Position numbers and translations under genes: made by a program. 45,765 bases of DNA, from assembly GCA_005223085.1 (NCBI GenBank), contig NJBP01000009.1, positions 1 to 45,765 of the forward strand, read 5' to 3'. Source of the DNA: Candidatus Aerophobetes bacterium Ae_b3b. GTDB taxonomy: Bacteria; Aerophobota; Aerophobia; Aerophobales; AE-B3A. The notes below the pieces were generated by a model, which was not told the origin of the DNA, made no database searches, and saw only the letters and a list, made by a program, of their open reading frames with translations. This document shows positions 32,709-45,616 of the stretch, piece by piece; the stretch's first letter is position 1, and each line of letters begins with the position of its first letter.

Positions 32709-33506
32709 ATGTCTCTAGTGCGCACATCCTTTATCCCCTTATATCATCAACTTATCGAGAAACTGAGGCAGAAAATAGAAAGTAGAGAATGGCTTCCTTA
32801 TTCTCTTATCCCCTCTGAAAGACAGTTATCCGAGAAATATCAGGTAAGTCGAGATACCTTAAGGAAGGCGCTCTCAAAACTAAAAGAAGAGGGGCTTCTA
32901 TATCGAAAGCGAGGGAAAGGGACCTTTGTCGCTGGGCCCAGGCTAACCTTTCATAAATTTGATGCCATCGCCAAAGATTTACAAGAACAAGGATTAGATT
33001 CCTCCTTTCGGGTCTTGCAGAATGAGAAAACCATGTCTGATTATTATGTAAGAACTATTTTGCAGCTTGCGGAAGGAGAAATGGTTCATAAGGTAATGCG
33101 GTTATTGCTCGCCGACGGAAGACCTATAGCGCTGGCTGCAGACTATTTCGGAGAGAAGACGGTTCCCGGCTTAGACGAAGAAGAGCTGGAAAAAGTCGCT
33201 CTTTGGGATACTCTAGTTAGAAAATATAACATACACATCACCAGAGTAGAGGAAACGTTTGCCCCTGTGCTCGCAGACGAATTTGAGGCTAAACAACTGG
33301 ATATTCCTTGTAACTCTCCTGTCTTTCTGGTGAGAAGAATTAATTACAGTGAGCGAATTCCTTTTGAATTCGGTGAAACGGTAGTGCGGGGAGACAAATG
33401 CTGTTATTCGGTTGAGCTTTCCTATGAAGGAATGGAAACTCGGTTGCCTCAGGGACATTTTACGCTTTATGTAAGGTCTTTGCAAGATAGATCCACCAGT
33501 AGCTAG
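32709..33506 (+). CDS. GntR-family (HutC/UTRA) transcriptional regulator
   Basis: The N-terminal winged helix (residues 8-77) shows IPLYHQLIEKLRQKIES, LIPSERQLSEKYQVSRDTLR and GLLYRKRGKGTFVAG; the C-terminal UTRA ligand domain (about 95-240) has IALAADYFGEK, LDIPCNSPVFLVRRI and FEFGETVVRGDKCCYSVEL. UTRA regulators usually bind sugars, sugar phosphates or related small molecules. 265 residues. The sequence ATGCACGTGGGGAGAAAAAAATG gives a GGGGAGA ribosome site. It heads the catabolic-looking island and is its likely local regulator. Confidence 0.92.
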   Translation: MSLVRTSFIPLYHQLIEKLRQKIESREWLPYSLIPSERQLSEKYQVSRDTLRKALSKLKEEGLLYRKRGKGTFVAGPRLTFHKFDAIAKDLQEQGLDSSFRVLQNEKTMSDYYVRTILQLAEGEMVHKVMRLLLADGRPIALAADYFGEKTVPGLDEEELEKVALWDTLVRKYNIHITRVEETFAPVLADEFEAKQLDIPCNSPVFLVRRINYSERIPFEFGETVVRGDKCCYSVELSYEGMETRLPQGHFTLYVRSLQDRSTSS

Positions 33507-33848
33507 AAAATATGCTCACATAAAGACGATTGACAATTCTCACTTTCGTTGTGTGATATGTGGATATGGGCACTGTGCTTCGCGAAAAACCTCAGAACTA
33601 GTTGAAGTTAAAGTAAGTTTTTAAGAATGAAATCATTAGAGAACGAACGATGAATCATGCAAATATAGGAGCTTTTTGCCCATGTGTTTTTCTTAATACT
33701 GGTAAAAAACTAAGAAACATATCTTCAGAAATTGAAAAAAGCCCTAGAAGGAAAGATAGAATACTGCAGTAAGGATGATGTTTGTCAAGTGATGTTGTCT
33801 TAACTTGCAGTTCTCTTCGTAGATGATCAGAAATTCGGAGGTCTATGT
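33507..33848 (+). promoter_or_regulatory. 342-base intergenic region, possible promoter for the island
   Basis: No gene seen. TTGACA at 33530-33535 is followed by TGATAT at 33554-33559 (18-base spacer), a weak promoter match. No GTATAC copies like those ahead of the GntR gene are present. The remainder is AT-rich without clear hairpins. Confidence 0.3.
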
Positions 33849-35327
33849 GTGGCGAAAATAGTAGTTTTAGGTTTGGACGGATTTAATCCTGAGTTTGTTA
33901 GACAGTGGTCCAATGAACTGCCTAACTTGATGAAGATGCAAAAGGAGGGAATATGGGGAAGTCTGGAAAGTATAGTTCCTGTTACTATTCCTCAGGCATG
34001 GATATGTGCTCAGTGTGGTCGGGGCCCTGGATCCCACGGTATCTGGGATTTTACCTATAGGAACGAGTTCTCTTATAGTGAGACAAAAGTGGTTAGTTCT
34101 GAGATTACAAGGAGAGTCGATCTATTACAAGCAATTCTTCCCAAGATGGGACAGAGAGTGGGGATAATTAGTGTACCGGTTACCTGGCCATCTCCAAAGA
34201 TTCCGGCAGGTTACGCTATATCTGGTCTTATGACCCTAAGCCTGGATCGTGGCTTTACTTCTCCTGATAGCCTCAAAGATGAGGTCTATAAGTTGGTTGG
34301 GGATTATATTATAGATGTAACCGAGGCCGATATGGATTGCAGCAAAATAGATAAGAGTCATGTGCTCAAAAATATTTATGATATGGATTCACAGCGTTTC
34401 ATATTAACAAAATATTTTATCAATGAAAAGAATTGTGACTATGTTATGACAGTTGTAATGGGAAGTAATTGTATACTAAATCTTTTATATCGTTGTTTTG
34501 ATTCAAAGGGCAAGTATTACGATTCTGATCCTTGTTATAAAGATATTTTACATGATTACTATGTCTGGATTGATAAAAATGTAGGAGAACTTGGTAAGAG
34601 TTTACCTAGGGATGTGGTATTATTCATTCATAGTGGCTATAGCATTCAAAAACTTGATGGACGGATTAATCTTAATGAATGGTTAATCAAAGAGGGATAT
34701 ATGACTCTTCTTGAGTATCCGATGAAGCTGACTTCACTCAAAGATGTTAAAGTGGACTGGTCTAAGACAGAATGCTGGAGTACAGGTTACGGTGGTAAAT
34801 TATATCTCAATATGAAGGGAAGAGAACCGAAAGGAATTGTTGACCCCAAGAGTTACGATGAGCTGTTGGATGAATTGGCTGCTAAGCTGAAAGATATCCC
34901 TGATAAACTTGGAAATCATTTGAACACTCAGATTTGGAAACGAGATGATATATATTTTGATTCGTACGCAAAATATGGTCCAGACTTGTTTGTGAACTTT
35001 AGTGAAGGTCAGTTAGGTACCAGTGAGTTGTTAGGCCATGGCCGGGAAAAGATATACTCATTTGATACAGCAAAAGACTCCGATGATGTAGCACGTGGTC
35101 TATCTGGGTACTTTGTTATAAGCGGACCGGATATACCAGCGGAGGGAGAGCTTAAAGAAGTATCATTACTTAATGTTGCTCCAACGGTTCTAGATATTCT
35201 TGATTTACCAATTCCTAAGAATATGGAGAAACCATCCGTTCTATCTATGGTAAAAAAGGGGGAGGCAACATATTCTAAAGAGTCTGAGAGAGCTGTTCGT
35301 TCTCGGCTTGAATCATTAGGCTATTGA
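33849..35327 (+). CDS. Alkaline-phosphatase-superfamily (type I phosphodiesterase-like) protein, probably catalytically altered
   Basis: The 492-residue protein follows the plan of bacterial type I phosphodiesterase/nucleotide pyrophosphatase-like proteins: IVVLGLDGFNPEFV (D10), the nucleophile region VPVTIPQAW (T46) and GSHGIWDFTYR, then GRINLNEWLIKEGYM and the C-terminal VAPTVLDILDLPIP. Positions that normally hold metal ligands are changed: TATDRVQH-type reads GSNCILN (N207, N211), SDHG reads IHSG (H261, S262), and the late SHRxxG histidine is lost. I infer a non-catalytic or repurposed member. GTG start with GGAGG 7 bases upstream; no signal peptide. A cytoplasmic partner of the neighbouring genes is possible. 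Confidence 0.8.
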   Translation: MAKIVVLGLDGFNPEFVRQWSNELPNLMKMQKEGIWGSLESIVPVTIPQAWICAQCGRGPGSHGIWDFTYRNEFSYSETKVVSSEITRRVDLLQAILPKMGQRVGIISVPVTWPSPKIPAGYAISGLMTLSLDRGFTSPDSLKDEVYKLVGDYIIDVTEADMDCSKIDKSHVLKNIYDMDSQRFILTKYFINEKNCDYVMTVVMGSNCILNLLYRCFDSKGKYYDSDPCYKDILHDYYVWIDKNVGELGKSLPRDVVLFIHSGYSIQKLDGRINLNEWLIKEGYMTLLEYPMKLTSLKDVKVDWSKTECWSTGYGGKLYLNMKGREPKGIVDPKSYDELLDELAAKLKDIPDKLGNHLNTQIWKRDDIYFDSYAKYGPDLFVNFSEGQLGTSELLGHGREKIYSFDTAKDSDDVARGLSGYFVISGPDIPAEGELKEVSLLNVAPTVLDILDLPIPKNMEKPSVLSMVKKGEATYSKESERAVRSRLESLGY

Positions 35328-35653
35328 GCGTTGATAGTAGGGGAAAATAGACAATTGTTTTTTTCTCCTTGAAGAAGCTTCCTGAGATGGAGGTAGAACG
35401 CCTCAATAGCAAATGCCAAAGTTATGCCTGGTCTTTGTGGCTCTTAGTATGAAGTGAGGGAAGGGTTTTAATCTGGAAGGATACCGCTCAGAGGCCTAAG
35501 AACGAGCGGCAAACGCTGTGAGAAATTGTATAGGCCAATCTAGCTTAGGATAAGAAAAAGTTACCCAGGAAGTGTTAAATGAGTCTTCTCTATTCTCAAG
35601 ATTCTTTCGCAAAGCCGAAGTAATCTAATGTATTTATGAAAGGAGAAAATCTA
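35328..35653. other. Intergenic region with no recognised gene
   Basis: 326 bases between the AlkP-fold gene and the first propeller gene. Short open stretches exist (for example near 35386-35450 and 35475-35520), but they lack start sites and resemble no family convincingly. No clear promoter or terminator; a T7 run at 35358-35364 has no stem in front. The region may be decayed sequence. Confidence 0.3.
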
Positions 35654-36823
35654 ATGGGTATTGCACGGACAACTTTGAAAGGTGTCACCCATTATGTTCC
35701 CTCAAGGGCATATAGCGGGTATACTTTATTTAGTCCTATGTTTGGTAAGGATGTATGGCTAGTTGATATGCAAGGTAGAATTGTACATCGCTGGAGGACA
35801 GAACCATATAAACCGAATTTTGCGCGGTTTCTTGCCAATGGTAATCTCCTTTATCAAGGTGTTAAATCGGGGGGTATAATGGGACCAGGGCTTGCCTACC
35901 TCTTTGGTGAGCATTATGAGCAAACCGAAGAAGACAGAGGTGTGTGTTTGATAGAGGTAGATTGGGATAATAACCTGGTATTGAAGTACGAAGAACCACA
36001 ATTTAATCACGACTTTTATCGTATGAAAAACGGAAACACTATGCTTATCAAATATGTAGATGTGCCCGATGACATAAAAAATAAGGTCAAGGGTGGTATC
36101 CCAGGTACAGAGCAAAATGGGATTATGTGGGCTGACGCCCTTAACGAGGTCACCCCCGATGGTGAAGTAGTGTGGGAGTGGCTGGCATATGAGCACCTAG
36201 ACCCGGAGATGGATGTTATTTGTCCTCTAGAGTATCGGGGTGAGTGGACTCACATGAATACGTGCAGTGTTCTACCAGATGGTAATATACTAGGCTCATT
36301 TCGTCAGACTAATACTATCTGTATTATTGATAAGGCTACCGGAAATATCATCTGGCGGTGGGGTCGTGACGAATTAGGCCACCAGCATGAGCCCACCATG
36401 TTGGACAATGGAAATATCCTAGTCTTTGATAATGGACCACACCGTTTCTTATCACAAGACTTAGATTATTATTCTAGAGTACTGGAGGTCAATCCAGCTA
36501 CTAATAAAATTGAGTGGGAATACAAGGATGATCCTCCGTCCGAGTTTTATGCCTTTGGTATGGGAGGAGCTCAGCGATTACCAAATGAAAATACTCTTAT
36601 ATGTGAAACTCATGGAGGCCGCATTTTCGAGGTTACTCGTGATAGAGAGATAATTTGGGAATATGTTAGTCCTTTCTATGGTCCCTTTTTGACTTACGGT
36701 CAGGCTAACCTAATCTATCGAGCCTACCGCTATGGACATGAATATCAGGGATTAAAAGGAAAGAACTTAGATCCTAATAATTTTAGGTGGCTAAACGCAG
36801 TATATGGACCTGGCGCTAAGTAA
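35654..36823 (+). CDS. Arylsulfotransferase (ASST)-type beta-propeller protein, paralog 1
   Basis: ASST enzymes move sulfate between phenolic compounds; many family members have no known substrate. The 389-residue protein has repeated blade ends: FLANGNLLY, MKNGNTM, LPDGNIL, LDNGNIL and LPNENTL, each followed by a strand, and between them VVWEWLAYEH, IIWRWGRDELGHQHEP, KIEWEYKDDP and IIWEYVSP. Candidate active-site residues are H119 (FNHDF), H200 (WTHMN), H243/H245 (GHQHEP) and R308. No signal peptide, unlike periplasmic ASSTs. ATG 35654 is preferred to 35636 because AAAGGAG lies between them and paralog 2 begins at the same residue (MGIAR). Confidence 0.8.
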   Translation: MGIARTTLKGVTHYVPSRAYSGYTLFSPMFGKDVWLVDMQGRIVHRWRTEPYKPNFARFLANGNLLYQGVKSGGIMGPGLAYLFGEHYEQTEEDRGVCLIEVDWDNNLVLKYEEPQFNHDFYRMKNGNTMLIKYVDVPDDIKNKVKGGIPGTEQNGIMWADALNEVTPDGEVVWEWLAYEHLDPEMDVICPLEYRGEWTHMNTCSVLPDGNILGSFRQTNTICIIDKATGNIIWRWGRDELGHQHEPTMLDNGNILVFDNGPHRFLSQDLDYYSRVLEVNPATNKIEWEYKDDPPSEFYAFGMGGAQRLPNENTLICETHGGRIFEVTRDREIIWEYVSPFYGPFLTYGQANLIYRAYRYGHEYQGLKGKNLDPNNFRWLNAVYGPGAK

Positions 36824-36853: not shown

Positions 36854-37972
36854 ATGGGAATCGCACGAACCAGTTTGAAAGGTGTTACCCATTATATTCA
36901 GTCAAATGCGTATAATGGGTATACTTTGTTTACTCCTTTAGGATCAACTGAGACAGTGTTAATTGATATGCAGGGGCGGGTTGTTCATCAATGGAAGATG
37001 CCCTATCCGCCAGGATTGTATGGAATACTTTTGGAGAACGGTAACTTCCTTTATGGCGGGCATGTAGAAAAAGGACTTTTACCCGACTTGAGAGGTGCTG
37101 GGGGAGAGTTGATAGAAGTAGATTGGGATGGCAACTTAGCTTGGAATTACAAAGACCCATACTTGCATCATAGTTTTTGTCGTTTGTCCAATGGAAATAC
37201 CATGGTCCTCAGATGGGTGGAGGTACCCAAGGATATTTCCGCTAAAATCGAAGGTGGTATGGCAGGGACAGAAAAGGATAGAATTATGTGGGGTGATTCT
37301 TTCCGAGAGGTCAACCCGCGTGGCAAGGTGGTATGGGAATGGTTGGCATACGAGCACCTGGATCCAGAAATAGATACCATCTGTCCTCTGTGCCCTCGCA
37401 GTCAGTGGACTGAGGCTAATTCATTCGCGATCCTATCAAATGGGGACATATTGGCTAGCTTTGCCCGGCTCAACACTATATGCATCATCAGTAAGGCTAC
37501 GGGTGATATCAAGTGGCGATGGGGTTCCGGAGGAGAACTAGGGCATCAAAATCATGCTACCGTCCTTGAAAATGGGAATATTCTTCTGTTCGATAACGGG
37601 ACACATTGTATCCATTTTTCCCAAGGATACTCCCGCGTTCTGGAGATAGACCCGGCTACTAACAAAATGGTCTGGGAATACAAGGATGACCCCTGGATGG
37701 CTTTCTATAGTGCTTATATGTCTAGCTGTCAGCGACTACCCAATGAGAATACCTTGATATGTGAGGCAGCAACAGGACGAATCTTCGAGGTAACAAAAAC
37801 AGGAAGGATTGTTTGGGAATTTGTTAATCCCTTTTCTTCCACGTTTGATCCGGTCTATGGGCATAACCATATTATCCCTAAAGCATACCGATACGGTCCA
37901 GAATATGGGGGTCTAAAAGCGAAGAATTTAGAGTACTCAGTTTACTTGATTGAAAGAGGAAGATTTGCCTAA
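36854..37972 (+). CDS. Arylsulfotransferase (ASST)-type beta-propeller protein, paralog 2
   Basis: Tandem paralog of the preceding gene over its whole length (MGIARTSLKGVTHYIQSNAY; VVWEWLAYEHLDPEID; NTICIISKATGDIKWRWG; QRLPNENTLICEA), 372 residues. The histidine of WTHMN in paralog 1 is Glu here (WTEAN), and GHQHEP is GHQNHA, so the two probably differ in activity or form an unequal pair. No signal peptide. AAGGAGGAAA precedes the ATG; the 30-base gap from paralog 1 points to one transcript. Confidence 0.8.
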   Translation: MGIARTSLKGVTHYIQSNAYNGYTLFTPLGSTETVLIDMQGRVVHQWKMPYPPGLYGILLENGNFLYGGHVEKGLLPDLRGAGGELIEVDWDGNLAWNYKDPYLHHSFCRLSNGNTMVLRWVEVPKDISAKIEGGMAGTEKDRIMWGDSFREVNPRGKVVWEWLAYEHLDPEIDTICPLCPRSQWTEANSFAILSNGDILASFARLNTICIISKATGDIKWRWGSGGELGHQNHATVLENGNILLFDNGTHCIHFSQGYSRVLEIDPATNKMVWEYKDDPWMAFYSAYMSSCQRLPNENTLICEAATGRIFEVTKTGRIVWEFVNPFSSTFDPVYGHNHIIPKAYRYGPEYGGLKAKNLEYSVYLIERGRFA

Positions 37973-38208: not shown

Positions 38209-39567
38209 ATGTGTAGAAAATTGTCAGTAGGAATTATGGTATTGTTGTTAAGTATTTTCGTTGTTCTGGGAACAACAGCGGCAGTAGCTCAGGCAGAGAC
38301 TGTGATAGGAGAAGATGTTCTTCAAGCCGGACGACCTTATGAGGGAACCACTCTTAGGTTTATCAGCTTGAATTATCTTTACAGCAAAGCCATTCAGCAA
38401 CTGACTCCCCATTTCGAGAAAGCTACGGGGATGAAAGTGGAAATCGAATTATATGGAACTGAGGATAATTTCATTAAGCAAGTAAGTGAACTGTCCATGG
38501 GTGGTTATGCTTATGATATAGTCCAAGTTCCTCCCTTTAACCAACCTCAGTATATGGCAGCTGGGTGGCTTAGTCCACTGGATGATTACCTTCAAGATTC
38601 CCGTTTTACTCCTTCAGCCTTTGACGCAGATGATTTTTTCAAAGTAGGAATGGAATTCGGAAGTCGTGAAGGGATACAGTACACTCTTCCTATATTCTCG
38701 GCCACTATACTCTATTACTACCGGACCGATGTGTTTGATAAATACGGCATAGCGGGTCCTGCGGAGACTTTTGAAGAGCTATTGGATATCAGCAAAAAGA
38801 TCCAGTCTGATGAGATAGCTGCCATTGTACTCCGAGGGAAACCGAGTATCGAGCAGAACATGTGGCCTTTTGGGCTGATCGCCCGTGGATATAGCTCGTT
38901 TTTCAAGGATTATCCCGATGATCTTCACCCCAACCTCACCGATCCAAACTTCCTAAAGGCGGCCAATCTCTGGAAGGAACTATTTCAGTATGGCCCGCCC
39001 GGGATCAACACCTTTTCGCATGAAGAGGTTATCTTGTATGCCCAGAAAGGTCTTGCTGCTCAGTGGATAGATGGGCATCCTCTTGCTGGTCTGTTCTTGG
39101 ATCCCGAAAGATCAAGCGTGGTAGGTAAGGTCGCGGTAGCAAAGACACCCCGGGGCCCAAAGGGATGGTTTCCCGCCTTTTCAGAACATGGAATTGGTAT
39201 AGCCAGAGGTTCTCTGCAGAAAGATGCCGCATGGGAGTTCATCAAGTGGGCTAGTAGTAAAGAGGTGCTTTTAGAGGCTAGCCAAATAAGTCAGTACTTG
39301 GCGGTAACCAGGAGGTCGGTATTTGCAGACCCCAGATTCAGAGAAAAATACTCCTATTTTGGAGGAACCTTTTTGGATATATCTAACGAAACTCTGCAGG
39401 CCAGAAGCCTGTATTTTCCTCCAATTCCGGAATGGCCCACAGTAGGGCATGTCATTGCCAGAGCTCTGTCTGAGGTGACTTCAGGTATTAAGAGCGCACA
39501 AGACGCCTTTAGTGGAGCTAACTCCACCGTAGATAGGATTATGAAAAGCGCTGGATACTACAAATAA
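38209..39567 (+). CDS. Extracellular solute-binding protein (family 1, CUT1 sugar type)
   Basis: Periplasmic receptor of an ABC importer, 452 residues. Signal peptide with hydrophobic core IMVLLLSIFVVLGTTAAVA, cleavage likely near AQA. Mature part has the family 1 fold: TLRFISLNYLYSKAIQQLTPHFEKATG-like first lobe, YDIVQVPPFNQPQYMAAGWLSPLDDY, TLPIFSATILYYYRTDVFDKYGI, then AWEFIKWASS. No lipobox, so soluble in the periplasm. AGGAGGG lies 6 bases upstream of the ATG. Followed by a strong hairpin and two permease genes. Substrate unknown; a carbohydrate or polyol derivative is likely from the family. Confidence 0.92.
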   Translation: MCRKLSVGIMVLLLSIFVVLGTTAAVAQAETVIGEDVLQAGRPYEGTTLRFISLNYLYSKAIQQLTPHFEKATGMKVEIELYGTEDNFIKQVSELSMGGYAYDIVQVPPFNQPQYMAAGWLSPLDDYLQDSRFTPSAFDADDFFKVGMEFGSREGIQYTLPIFSATILYYYRTDVFDKYGIAGPAETFEELLDISKKIQSDEIAAIVLRGKPSIEQNMWPFGLIARGYSSFFKDYPDDLHPNLTDPNFLKAANLWKELFQYGPPGINTFSHEEVILYAQKGLAAQWIDGHPLAGLFLDPERSSVVGKVAVAKTPRGPKGWFPAFSEHGIGIARGSLQKDAAWEFIKWASSKEVLLEASQISQYLAVTRRSVFADPRFREKYSYFGGTFLDISNETLQARSLYFPPIPEWPTVGHVIARALSEVTSGIKSAQDAFSGANSTVDRIMKSAGYYK

Positions 39568-39591
39568 TCTCCGTTCCCGGCAGATAAATAC

Positions 39592-39633
39592 CAAAGGTGG
39601 TCTCAGACGTGTGATTCTCTGAGACCACCTTTG
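39592..39633 (+). terminator. Strong intercistronic hairpin after the binding-protein gene
   Basis: Perfect 16-base stem (39592-39607 with 39618-39633; CAAAGGTGGTCTCAGA on the left arm), 10-base loop, no T-run after it. More likely an mRNA-stabilising or partial-termination hairpin that keeps binding protein above permease levels than a full terminator. The stem core AAGGTGG...CCACCTT resembles the hairpin after the porin. Confidence 0.75.
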
Positions 39634-39646
39634 TCGAGGTTTATCC

Positions 39647-40519
39647 GTGGCTTTACGTAAAGAGGAAAAAAGGGCTAATGCATTATTTTCGGTGCCTATG
39701 ATTATAGTAATTGGAGCACTGACCATAATTCCACTCACATATATGGTTTATATTTCAACGACTTCCTGGAATCTAGCAAGACCCTGGGGGACTACTTTTG
39801 TAGGATGGGACAACTATTCATATCTGTTGAAAGACCCTGATTTAATCCAGGTAATTCTGGTTACCCTGTATTTTGTGATTTTCTGCGTGGCCGGACAGAT
39901 GGCTTTGGGACTCGGTATTGCAATTCTCCTTCATGCTAACGTAAAAACAATCTCGAAAACTCGTTCTCTTTTCATATTCCCTATGGTTTTGGCTCCGATT
40001 ATTGTGGGGCTGGTCTGGAAAATATTTCTAAATCCACAGTTAGGAGGTCTTGCGGCCTGGTTAAACCTTTTAGGTCTACCTACCGTATCTTTGCTGGGTA
40101 GTGCTCGGGGAGCTGTGACGGCCATCATCATCGCCTCCATTTGGGAGTGGTTTCCTTTCGTGATGCTCATATTGCTCGGAGCCTTGGAATCTTTTCCTGA
40201 AGAGCCTTTTGAGGCAGCACACGTGGACGGTGCCAGTAGTACTCAGATATTTTGGCACATTACCTTACCTTTACTCAAGCCGGCTTTGCTTTTAGCTCTC
40301 TCCTTCCGAGTTATTGAAAGTATGAAGATATTCCCTCTGATTTTCATGATGACCGGTGGAGGTCCAGGCAAGTCAACCAGTAGTATAGACTACTATGCTT
40401 ATTTAAACGGGTTTGTGTATTTAGATATTGGCTACTCTTCGGCCCTGATGGTAATAATGCTCATTCTAACTTCCGTGCTTTGTTTCTCATTGTTCAGATC
40501 CTTGTTTGTCAGTCGTTAA
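39647..40519 (+). CDS. ABC sugar transporter permease, MalF/UgpA-like
   Basis: Inner-membrane channel subunit, 290 residues with six hydrophobic segments starting at LFSVPMIIVIGALTIIPLTYM. The EAA loop that docks the ATPase reads EEPFEAAHVDGASSTQIFWH followed by ITLPLLKP. GTG start (39647) 13 bases after the hairpin; no clear SD because the hairpin occupies that space, so translation may be modest. Pairs with the next gene. Confidence 0.93.
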   Translation: MALRKEEKRANALFSVPMIIVIGALTIIPLTYMVYISTTSWNLARPWGTTFVGWDNYSYLLKDPDLIQVILVTLYFVIFCVAGQMALGLGIAILLHANVKTISKTRSLFIFPMVLAPIIVGLVWKIFLNPQLGGLAAWLNLLGLPTVSLLGSARGAVTAIIIASIWEWFPFVMLILLGALESFPEEPFEAAHVDGASSTQIFWHITLPLLKPALLLALSFRVIESMKIFPLIFMMTGGGPGKSTSSIDYYAYLNGFVYLDIGYSSALMVIMLILTSVLCFSLFRSLFVSR

Positions 40520-40550
40520 GAAAAGAGTTGCTTCCCTGAGGAGATGTACC

Positions 40551-41384
40551 ATGGAATATAAGAGTGTCGCATATATTAAAAAAGCAGTACTCATAATGAT
40601 TACGATTGGAGGATTATTCGCTATACTTATTCCTCTCATTTGGCTTTTTTTGATTTCTATTAAATCTCCCTTGGAGGCGTTTAGGCCTGAGTCCTTCTGG
40701 GTGTTCACTCCTACCTTTAGAAATTACTTCGATGCAATTTCTAATCCCTCAATTCGGAGATACTTTGTTAATAGTTTTGTAGTGGCAAGTCTGTCTCTTG
40801 CTATTTCCATGATTATCGGAGTTCCTGCCGCCTTTGCATTCTCGAAGTTAAAGAGCAGGTTTAAGAATTTCCTTCTCGTGTACATTGTACTTGCACGCAT
40901 GATACCTCCTATGATCTTTATTATTCCCTATTTCATATTGTATCAGAGATTGAATCTAATAAACACAAGAATAGGGCTCGCCGTTGTCTACACCAACTTT
41001 AATGTGGCTTTGGTTGTATGGTCTATGTGGACATTTTTCAATGAAGTACCCCAAGATCTATTAGAAGTTGCCCGTATTGACGGAGCTTCCATTTATCAAA
41101 TTTTCTACAAGATCTTTCTCCCTTTGTCTGCTCCAGGATTGACGACAACTGCTATTATCTGTTTTCTAATGTCCTGGAACGAATTTCTATTCGCTCTCAT
41201 CCTAACCCGGGGCGCTACCAAAACCATACCCGTGGGGATAATAGATTTGATTTCTTATGAAGGCGTAAACTGGGGATTGGTCAGTTCCGGAGCAATACTC
41301 ATGCTTTTGCCCATGCTTCTCTTTGCCCACCTCTCACGGAAATATATTGTTAAAGGACTTCTGGGCGGTGCACTAAAAGGTTAA
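40551..41384 (+). CDS. ABC sugar transporter permease, MalG/UgpE-like
   Basis: Second channel subunit, 277 residues, six membrane segments from AVLIMITIGGLFAILIPLIW. EAA loop: VPQDLLEVARIDGASIYQIF, then LPLSAPG. The ATG at 40551 has TGAGGAG 7 bases upstream; a longer frame opening at 40506 would overlap the previous gene and lacks an SD. No ATPase gene follows; the only candidate in the window is at 8961. Confidence 0.93.
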   Translation: MEYKSVAYIKKAVLIMITIGGLFAILIPLIWLFLISIKSPLEAFRPESFWVFTPTFRNYFDAISNPSIRRYFVNSFVVASLSLAISMIIGVPAAFAFSKLKSRFKNFLLVYIVLARMIPPMIFIIPYFILYQRLNLINTRIGLAVVYTNFNVALVVWSMWTFFNEVPQDLLEVARIDGASIYQIFYKIFLPLSAPGLTTTAIICFLMSWNEFLFALILTRGATKTIPVGIIDLISYEGVNWGLVSSGAILMLLPMLLFAHLSRKYIVKGLLGGALKG

Positions 41385-41527: not shown

Positions 41528-41605
41528 ATAAGATATCAACTACCTTTTTTGCAGATCTGGACTTCAAATACCTGTTCTTAATTACACTTGTCAAGGAGGA
41601 CTACA

Positions 41606-42790
41606 ATGACTTCCAAAGAACGGATCTTGGGTGCTATCAAGGGCCAAGAGATTGACCGAGTTCCCATCTATGCTCCATTTCTAACTGCTCGGGTGATCAA
41701 TCCTGCTCATGTTCCAGTAGTACCGCCAATAAGCAATTTACTGCAGGACGGGATAAGTGCTTTAGATGATTGGCTGACAAAAGATCCTAATTACTTGCAA
41801 ATTACCAAATTAGTTAATGAAAAATGTGAAAAAGTCTGGTCTTACTACTTTCGAGAACTTGACAGATGGTTTTTATTAACACCTAGAGAATTTATAAAAG
41901 TGGCTAAAGTGGAAGAAGAAAATGATTCTATTTTGATAAAGTATCAAGTTCGAACCCCCAAAGGCAATTTAGAATATATTTGTGAGAAGCGTAAAGATAT
42001 TTCTACAGTTTGGGATAGAAAGTATATAATTAAAGATAAAAAAGATGTGGAAAGGATCCTTTCTGTTCCTTATACTCTTCAAAAATCTGATATTGAAGAT
42101 TTTTTCAAATACAGAAGAGAGATAGAGGAGAAAGGCGGCTTGATGTACATATTTGTAAGTATTCCCATGGTGTGTGTATCTCAACTTTTCCCCTTTGAGC
42201 AGTTTTTGACCTGGTGTGCAACTGAGAGATCTACCCTAGTGAGACTCATCGAAACTGCTTTCGAGAGAATATTCGAACAGCTTGAATATCTTCTCCAAAA
42301 TGGAGTGGGCCCCATATTTCACTTTGGAGGCTCAGAGCAAGCAACCCCACCTATGATGTCTCCCGAACTCTACGATGAGTTTGTGCTAAAATATGATAGT
42401 AGATTTTTCGATTTGGTCCATCGTTACGGCAGTTATGTAGCCGTACACTGTCATGGGCGAGTGGGAAGTATTCTAGACAAGTTGATTGATATGGGAGTCG
42501 ACCTTCTTGATCCTGTAGAAGCCCCTCCTGGTGGAGACATTGAAATTGGAGAGGCAAAAAGGAAGGTTAAAGGTAGAATAACTTTAGTGGGTAATATTCA
42601 AATCAGCGATATGGAGAACTGTACTCCTGAGGAAATTGATGAGAAGGTAAAAGAGGCTATATTCTCTGGTGGAAAAGAGAAATTCATATTAGGTACTACC
42701 GAAGGCCCTCTATCATCTGTCTCGGATAGAATGAAAGAAAACTACATACGGTTTGTTGAAGCGGGAATCAAATATGGGAGGTTCAATTGA
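41606..42790 (+). CDS. Uroporphyrinogen-decarboxylase-family protein (MtaA/CmuA-like)
   Basis: The family includes heme-pathway UroD and methyltransferases acting on corrinoid-bound methyl groups. Visible: MTSKERILGAIKGQEIDRVP at the start, FHFGGSEQATPPMMSPELYDEFV, and the metal-binding region VAVHCHGRVGSILDKLIDMGVDLLDPVEAPPGGD split over ~34 residues, then LVGNIQ and ILGTTEGP. The usual H-x-C of MtaA reads H-C-H. Low-number sequence identity is expected to true UroD and there are no heme genes nearby, so methyl transfer or an unknown reaction in the island's pathway is likelier. ATG 41606 with AAGGAGGA; 394 residues. No corrinoid protein gene is visible. Confidence 0.85.
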   Translation: MTSKERILGAIKGQEIDRVPIYAPFLTARVINPAHVPVVPPISNLLQDGISALDDWLTKDPNYLQITKLVNEKCEKVWSYYFRELDRWFLLTPREFIKVAKVEEENDSILIKYQVRTPKGNLEYICEKRKDISTVWDRKYIIKDKKDVERILSVPYTLQKSDIEDFFKYRREIEEKGGLMYIFVSIPMVCVSQLFPFEQFLTWCATERSTLVRLIETAFERIFEQLEYLLQNGVGPIFHFGGSEQATPPMMSPELYDEFVLKYDSRFFDLVHRYGSYVAVHCHGRVGSILDKLIDMGVDLLDPVEAPPGGDIEIGEAKRKVKGRITLVGNIQISDMENCTPEEIDEKVKEAIFSGGKEKFILGTTEGPLSSVSDRMKENYIRFVEAGIKYGRFN

Positions 42791-44410: not shown

Positions 44411-45616
44411 ATGAAAAATGTTATCTTGTTAACGGTGGATACATTAAGAAAAGATACCTTAGGGTGTTATGGTAATGAAGATAAATTAACTCCATTTATT
44501 GATTCTTTGCAGGATAAATGCATCAGATTTACAAAGGCCCAATCCATTGGACCATATACCCAGGCATCATTTCCGGGGATACTCACCTCTTCTTATTATC
44601 TTGAATATGGGAGAGGAAAGAAGCTTTCACCAAAAAGGACTTTGATTTCTGAGGTTCTTCAAAAAACTAAAATTACAACAGCCGCGTTTCATTCAAATCC
44701 ATATCTGTGTGATTTTTTTGGCTGGAATAGAGGTTGGGACATCTTTTATGATTCTATGGAGGCAGATGTTACTCCAGAGGTTCCTTATGTAAAGGGTGAT
44801 GGGATTAACAAAGAGGTGAGTGAGTGGTTATCCTCGCGTGTTAAAGAGAAAGAATACAAACCGTTTTTCCTATGGCTGCATTATATGGATGTCCATGAGC
44901 CTTATATTCCTGAAAAGAAATATGTTGACATGGTAGATCCTTCTGTCAATCTCACTCAAGACGAGATGTTCACTCTATTTAAGAATGTATTGTTGAAGAG
45001 AGATGCTTCGGATAAGGGAACGGTAAAGCTTCTAAAGAAGCTCTATGACGCTCATGTTCGGGAGGTCGATGATTACATCAAGGATTTCTTTGGCATATTG
45101 GAGAGATTTAACCTTTTAAAGAACTCGCTAGTTATTATGACCTCAGATCACGGTGATGAATTTAATGAACACGGTGGTCTTTCTCATGATGGTAAGATGT
45201 ATTCAGAGCTTATAGATATACCTTTCCTTATTTATGATTATGACACGGCTAAGGCTGAGGTTTGCCATGCCTTAGTTAGTAATATTGATATACCCCCCAC
45301 TATAGTTCATCTATTTGCCCTTGAGCCAGTAAATGATTTTGAAGGTCATTCCCTTCTTCCCCTTGAAGATTATCCCAAGAAGGGATGCTTTGGAGAATCT
45401 ATTAGTAAGATAGGTCACAAAGAAAAGGAAACAGATAAACCGATCTATTTTTATCAAGAAGATGAGCAAAAAATAATTTACCGACAAGATAGCAATATCT
45501 GGGAAATGTATGGTCTTAAAGAAGATCCTAAAGAGCTAAACAACATAATTGGCACATCAGTTATGGCAAGGGAGATGAAGGAGAAATTAAGGCCCCGAAT
45601 TAAGAAGATGGGCTAA
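44411..45616 (+). CDS. Sulfatase/phosphodiesterase-fold hydrolase with intact metal site
   Basis: 401 residues, alkaline phosphatase superfamily. Metal ligands: D10 and D15 in LLTVDTLRKDTLGCYG, D246 and H247 in TSDHGDEFNEHG; also FLWLHYMDVHEPYIP, the usual sulfatase-like substrate loop. The nucleophile region reads GPYTQASFPGILTS: Thr (T50) stands where Cys or Ser of the sulfatase C/S-x-P-x-R motif would be and both P and R are missing, so it is not a formylglycine sulfatase; phosphate or phosphonate ester hydrolysis is as likely. GAAGGGAAGGA precedes the ATG. No signal peptide, so cytoplasmic. Confidence 0.88.
   Translation: MKNVILLTVDTLRKDTLGCYGNEDKLTPFIDSLQDKCIRFTKAQSIGPYTQASFPGILTSSYYLEYGRGKKLSPKRTLISEVLQKTKITTAAFHSNPYLCDFFGWNRGWDIFYDSMEADVTPEVPYVKGDGINKEVSEWLSSRVKEKEYKPFFLWLHYMDVHEPYIPEKKYVDMVDPSVNLTQDEMFTLFKNVLLKRDASDKGTVKLLKKLYDAHVREVDDYIKDFFGILERFNLLKNSLVIMTSDHGDEFNEHGGLSHDGKMYSELIDIPFLIYDYDTAKAEVCHALVSNIDIPPTIVHLFALEPVNDFEGHSLLPLEDYPKKGCFGESISKIGHKEKETDKPIYFYQEDEQKIIYRQDSNIWEMYGLKEDPKELNNIIGTSVMAREMKEKLRPRIKKMG

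Follow-up and report, generated by a model that had tools for sequence, protein, structure and literature searches.

A maintained pseudo-phosphodiesterase of the NPP fold encoded beside arylsulfotransferase-like propellers in Candidatus Aerophobetes

A gene at positions 33849–35327 (+ strand) of the window, by which we mean the entire 45,765-nucleotide contig of Candidatus Aerophobetes bacterium Ae_b3b analysed here, encodes a 492 aa protein of the PF01663/NPP fold that has lost its nucleophile and five of its six metal ligands. The fold is kept, the gene is under purifying selection, and its place beside propeller genes is conserved. We regard the protein as a pseudoenzyme with high confidence; it is a maintained one, neither a decaying gene nor the bearer of a conserved new active site.

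Fold and catalytic positions

The reading frame runs from a GTG start to a TGA stop, and direct sequence reading places GGAGG, a ribosome-binding-like site, 7 bases upstream of the start (33837–33841, + strand). The product scores 81 bits against the PF01663 profile, for which the curated cut-off is 23, and no NCBIfam equivalog matched it above its own cut-off. Its AlphaFold2 (AF2) model has a pLDDT of 90.9 and a pTM of 0.89. The best structural match of the model is ENPP5/NPP5 (5veo; Z 29.5, 340 residues at 3.8 Å), and NPP-type phosphodiesterases align along nearly its whole chain (Z ~29). By fold and family the protein is a member of PF01663, as a preliminary description of this DNA had anticipated in assigning the open reading frame, its frame and an AlkP-superfamily fold.

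Across 24 diverse family members the seven catalytic columns are occupied by D, T/S, D, H, D, H and H, with zero exceptions among rows that carry a letter, and all seven positions are intact in 70/70 outgroup loci. The same columns hold D10, I47, N207, N211, G263, Y264 and R416 in the window protein, where D10 (codon 33876–33878) is the only one kept (1/7). We take D10/D263/H264 and D207/H211/H416 to be the two NPP metal sites and column 47 to be the nucleophile. At the first site D10 alone survives, with S-G-Y in place of S-D-H at codons 262–264 (34632–34640); at the other all three ligands are replaced, the D...H pair by N207 and N211 (codons 207–211, 34467–34481) and the late metal-binding histidine by R416 (35094–35096). 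These codons, placed by alignment, are all on the + strand. Comparison with relatives upheld the preliminary description on three points, namely that D10 remains, that the D...H pair (D and H in 24/24 family members) reads N207/N211, and that the late histidine is gone.

Two of its placements were corrected by the same alignment. T46, proposed as a remaining nucleophile, reflects an alignment slip: the P-x-x-[TS] nucleophile column is 47 (T46 and I47 codons, 33984–33989, + strand), which is Ile in the window protein and T or S in 24/24 relatives and 70/70 outgroup loci, and column 46 in relatives is mostly I, L or V. A predicted helix begins at column 47 in the AF2 models of both the window protein and an intact sister, so the register is identical. 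The SDHG motif, previously read as IHSG, aligns with S262-G263-Y264-S265; H261 falls outside it and is present also in one intact sister.

An ordinary phosphodiesterase that used T46 as nucleophile and drew its ligands from shifted positions is highly improbable. T46 does stand next to the nucleophile column and D10 is kept, but the paralogue in the same genome has Ala46 and Leu47, and the alignment offers no Asp or His near N207, N211, G263, Y264 or R416 to replace the lost ligands, although the preliminary description had allowed that intact ligands might be found elsewhere. D218 and H221 were considered as alternative metal ligands and rejected, since the family does not conserve them, whereas D207 and H211 are universal. 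Judged by alignment, the window protein fails the tested defining features of a catalytic type I phosphodiesterase. Read against the pseudoenzyme definition used (PMC10211241), its sequence lacks the catalytic motifs and has no migrated replacements for them.

Relatives, stepwise ligand loss and selection

A single-sequence scan of genome-collection and viral contigs returned no relatives; an alignment-based scan recovered the clade. The window's genome carries the paralogue on a separate contig (67% identity), and further members from the genome-collection scan are 48–59% identical. Searches at wider taxonomic range (class for L046, order for L050, phylum for both the Atribacterota member and L051) added a single dead member, G298, which came from the class-level search. 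The clade numbers 13 sequences (support 100/100). Nested within it is a dead subclade of nine (support 100/100), made up of the window protein and eight homologues at 52–67% identity; eight of the nine are the core dead members, and the ninth, L053, branches earliest. The clade's four remaining sequences, the sisters L049, L051, L052 and L054 (48–50% identity), have 7/7 catalytic positions. The dead sample is small (n=9) and the relatives come almost solely from metagenome-assembled genomes, as an assembly or binning artefact would have it, but several loci from separate assemblies give consistent phylogeny and synteny and the paralogue lies on a different contig of its genome, and we give an artefact negligible probability.

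Loss of the ligands differs from member to member. L053 keeps D207, H211, D263 and H264, carries D10S and has Asp for the late histidine; the N-terminal part of this deltaproteobacterial relative has a disrupted frame (L053:3880–4110). D263 is lost in 8/8 core dead members (G, A, C, N or P), as is H264 (Y in seven, F in one). The other columns vary among them: 207 is N/T/D/E, 211 is N/S/D/H/R, 416 is R/Y/S/N/H and 47 is I/L/S/T/A. Among catalytic-ligand changes, only the loss of D263-H264 with an aromatic residue at 264 is common to all eight, and the earlier question whether orthologues share the same substitutions is answered in the affirmative to that extent; the rest differ. The other complete core members keep 1–4 of the 7 positions, with the maximum of 4/7 in L047 (and in L048 if Ser47 is counted), and such members might retain weak mononuclear metal binding. 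Because intact sisters lie outside the subclade and losses differ within it, the sequences indicate that catalytic loss proceeded step by step along the tree and is not scattered at random through the family.

The preliminary description had also raised the possibility of a new active site, in which the same fold would use other metals or residues for new chemistry. We consider this unlikely. The protein is under selection and has an altered yet common S-x-[YF] motif, but the replacing residues differ among orthologues and no newly conserved set of Asp, His, Cys or Glu accompanies them. Some residues have become invariant in the core eight and occur in none of the four intact sisters; they include no His or Cys, and E159 and D337 are the only acidic ones, so a relocated metal site is not indicated.

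We compared 84 columns that are invariant in 14 intact relatives, setting the catalytic columns against the 77 others in a permutation test. Retention in the eight core dead members is 33% at catalytic columns vs. 82% at the 77 others (p = 0.0002); loss at catalytic columns exceeds chance. Relaxed columns lie mostly at or beside catalytic positions (46–47, 165, 208–211, 263–264 and 411–416). Between the window gene and its own-genome paralogue, dN/dS is 0.21 (NG86) or 0.30 (YN00). The value for the adjoining arylsulfotransferase-like (ASST) genes is 0.09–0.13, so constraint on the pseudo-phosphodiesterase is partly relaxed. Under neutrality ~16 stops per lineage are expected and zero are present, and the frame is open in 8/8 core dead members, which span several phyla.

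These results bear on whether the gene is decaying towards loss, which the preliminary description would have read from random variation of the ligands. The ligands do vary between members, the L053 frame is disrupted and dN/dS is above that of the neighbours, but the open frames across phyla, a dN/dS well under 1, the retention of most family-invariant non-catalytic residues and conserved synteny argue for maintenance, and we judge decay very unlikely. A protein that kept its fold, lost most metal ligands and became a pseudoenzyme, as first proposed, agrees with the single catalytic position retained, the Z of 29.5 and the dN/dS of 0.21–0.30.

The arylsulfotransferase-like neighbourhood and a proposed role

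Upstream of the gene on the + strand, profile search identified a GntR/UTRA regulator (32709–33506). Downstream on the same strand lie two arylsulfotransferase-like propellers (PF05935), assigned by profile and alignment: ASST1 (35636–36823), which keeps the complete set of five catalytic residues known from E. coli AssT (H252, H356, N358, R374 and H436), and ASST2 (36854–37972), in which the set is eroded, with Glu, Ala and Asn at the H356, R374 and H436 positions. The roles of the AssT residues follow PMC13426309; H356, N358, R374 and H436 were placed in ASST1 through the 3elq alignment and H252 by motif only. A recoded stop joining ASST1 and ASST2 was considered and rejected, as standard stop codons, TAA and TAG, lie between them. 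Farther along the + strand are a sugar-type ABC importer (38209–41384), with a solute-binding protein at 38209–39567 by profile and two permease-like genes by similarity to contig C25, and a second AlkP-superfamily (sulfatase-fold) protein of family F2 (44411–45616; profile and neighbourhood comparison) with intact Asp/His motifs, just past which the contig ends. The same gene run holds an MtaA/CmuA-like (URO-D) methyltransferase-type protein at 41588–42790, followed by a zinc alcohol dehydrogenase. By eye, a C/S-x-P-x-R formylglycine motif is missing from its expected position in family F2, whose members are probably Ser/Thr-nucleophile AlkP enzymes, not classical sulfatases.

A propeller gene adjoins in 12/13 clade loci vs. 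0/70 outgroup loci (within up to 6 kb). Every core dead locus (8/8) has arylsulfotransferase-type propellers next to the gene; the propeller beside the intact sisters is a different one and lacks sulfotransferase residues. Five core dead loci (window, C25, L048, L047 and L050) have two tandem ASST copies, L046 and L055 have a fused pair (766 aa) with the sulfotransferase set incomplete in each half, and the propeller partner of G298 runs past the contig end. Fused ASSTs of 766 aa, with neither half carrying a full catalytic set, lie at L145:291–2591 and L146:11547–13847. Within the dead subclade, ATP sulfurylase is found in C25, L048, L047 and L053, and a CysD-like PP-loop protein in C25, L048, L046, L047, G298 and L053; at L034:2189–3031 and its homologues (family F3) the CysD-like protein stands beside a complete ATP sulfurylase. 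The second intact AlkP-fold protein occurs in the window, C25, L048, L046, L047, G298 and L053. AprA was not found in the window's own genome, an 88.6% complete assembly, so its ATP sulfurylase is probably not for sulfate respiration.

The three ASST2 changes recur in the paralogous locus and L048, and ASST2, with these conserved substitutions, is a likely second pseudoenzyme of the cluster. H356E, R374A and H436N are common to the window copy, L034:5693–6802 and L036:3517–4608. The histidine nucleophile is present in both ASST copies of L047, one of which is missing H356 and no other residue of the catalytic set.

We lean, with some reserve, towards the reading that the window protein is a dead NPP-like PF01663 member acting as a non-catalytic subunit of the cytosolic sulfuryl-transfer system encoded alongside it. 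The protein would not bind a binuclear metal centre or hydrolyse esters, and its metal cavity would probably be filled by the aromatic residue at 264. ASST1 would be the catalytic sulfotransferase and ASST2 a second, eroded subunit, with the pseudo-phosphodiesterase serving as scaffold, allosteric activator or binder of the sulfuryl ligand; in sister loci, ATP sulfurylase and the CysD-like protein would handle sulfate or APS. The partner role is the weakest step; the partnership is drawn from gene neighbourhood, and neighbouring genes may share only a pathway.

A possible but less probable alternative is that the pseudoenzyme works independently of the sulfotransferase and senses or binds a ligand, either an organosulfate or a nucleotide. 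The NPP-fold pocket is kept, with Y/F264, W113 and N442 as common changes in the eight core members, and the GntR/UTRA regulator lies upstream in the window; the propeller is conserved as a neighbour but the regulator is not, and pocket residues besides 264 vary. Beyond the subunit reading, we speculate that roles were swapped: an ancestral active phosphodiesterase with a non-catalytic propeller would have given way to a sulfotransferase propeller with a dead phosphodiesterase partner. The module (ASST pair, ATP sulfurylase, CysD-like protein and AlkP-fold enzyme) would then form an undescribed cytosolic organosulfate pathway of uncultured anaerobes, a scenario that we hold to be rather doubtful.

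Comparison with known systems

Our literature search found no description of the cluster, nor of AlkP pseudoenzymes like the window protein. Relatives at 48–67% identity range from intact through partly eroded to almost completely eroded, and from them the order of catalytic loss can be read in one of the most thoroughly studied enzyme superfamilies. They form a natural stepwise record of the passage from enzyme to pseudoenzyme, and the matched pairs make conservation of a dead enzyme testable. The cluster may in addition represent a pathway, so far undescribed, by which uncultured sediment bacteria handle sulfate esters.

Type I phosphodiesterases of the NPP fold (Xac NPP, 2gsn; ENPP5, 5veo) resemble the window protein in family score, whole-chain structure match and D10, but differ in that the window protein is without the nucleophile column and five metal-ligand columns and is presumed non-catalytic. 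The intact sisters, from Atribacterota (L049/L052), a deltaproteobacterial MAG (L051) and Firmicutes UBA5435 (L054), share the clade and a propeller-gene neighbour, but have all seven positions, a propeller lacking sulfotransferase residues, and other further neighbours. AssT (3elq) has its five residues kept in ASST1, whereas the neighbouring propellers show no signal peptide by eye and come in pairs, tandem or fused, of which one copy is usually eroded.

YejM/LapC, a regulator of LPS synthesis, is likewise of the AlkP fold and has a regulatory role; it differs in sitting in the membrane and having a periplasmic domain; the window protein has no match to the curated NCBIfam YejM model at E 0.01. 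YejM has been reported to bind Mg and show phosphatase activity (PMC7576196), and an AlkP-fold regulator reported to be an active metalloenzyme is a cautionary parallel for calling the window protein inactive. By analogy, the window protein would work most like the dead paralogues that tune an active enzyme. Catalytically dead paralogues can activate a partner enzyme, as in the trypanosome AdoMetDC prozyme (PMC5201418; review PMC10211241). The prozyme is similar in its proposed mode, being dead, conserved and encoded with active enzymes; the presumed partner here is of another fold, a beta-propeller.
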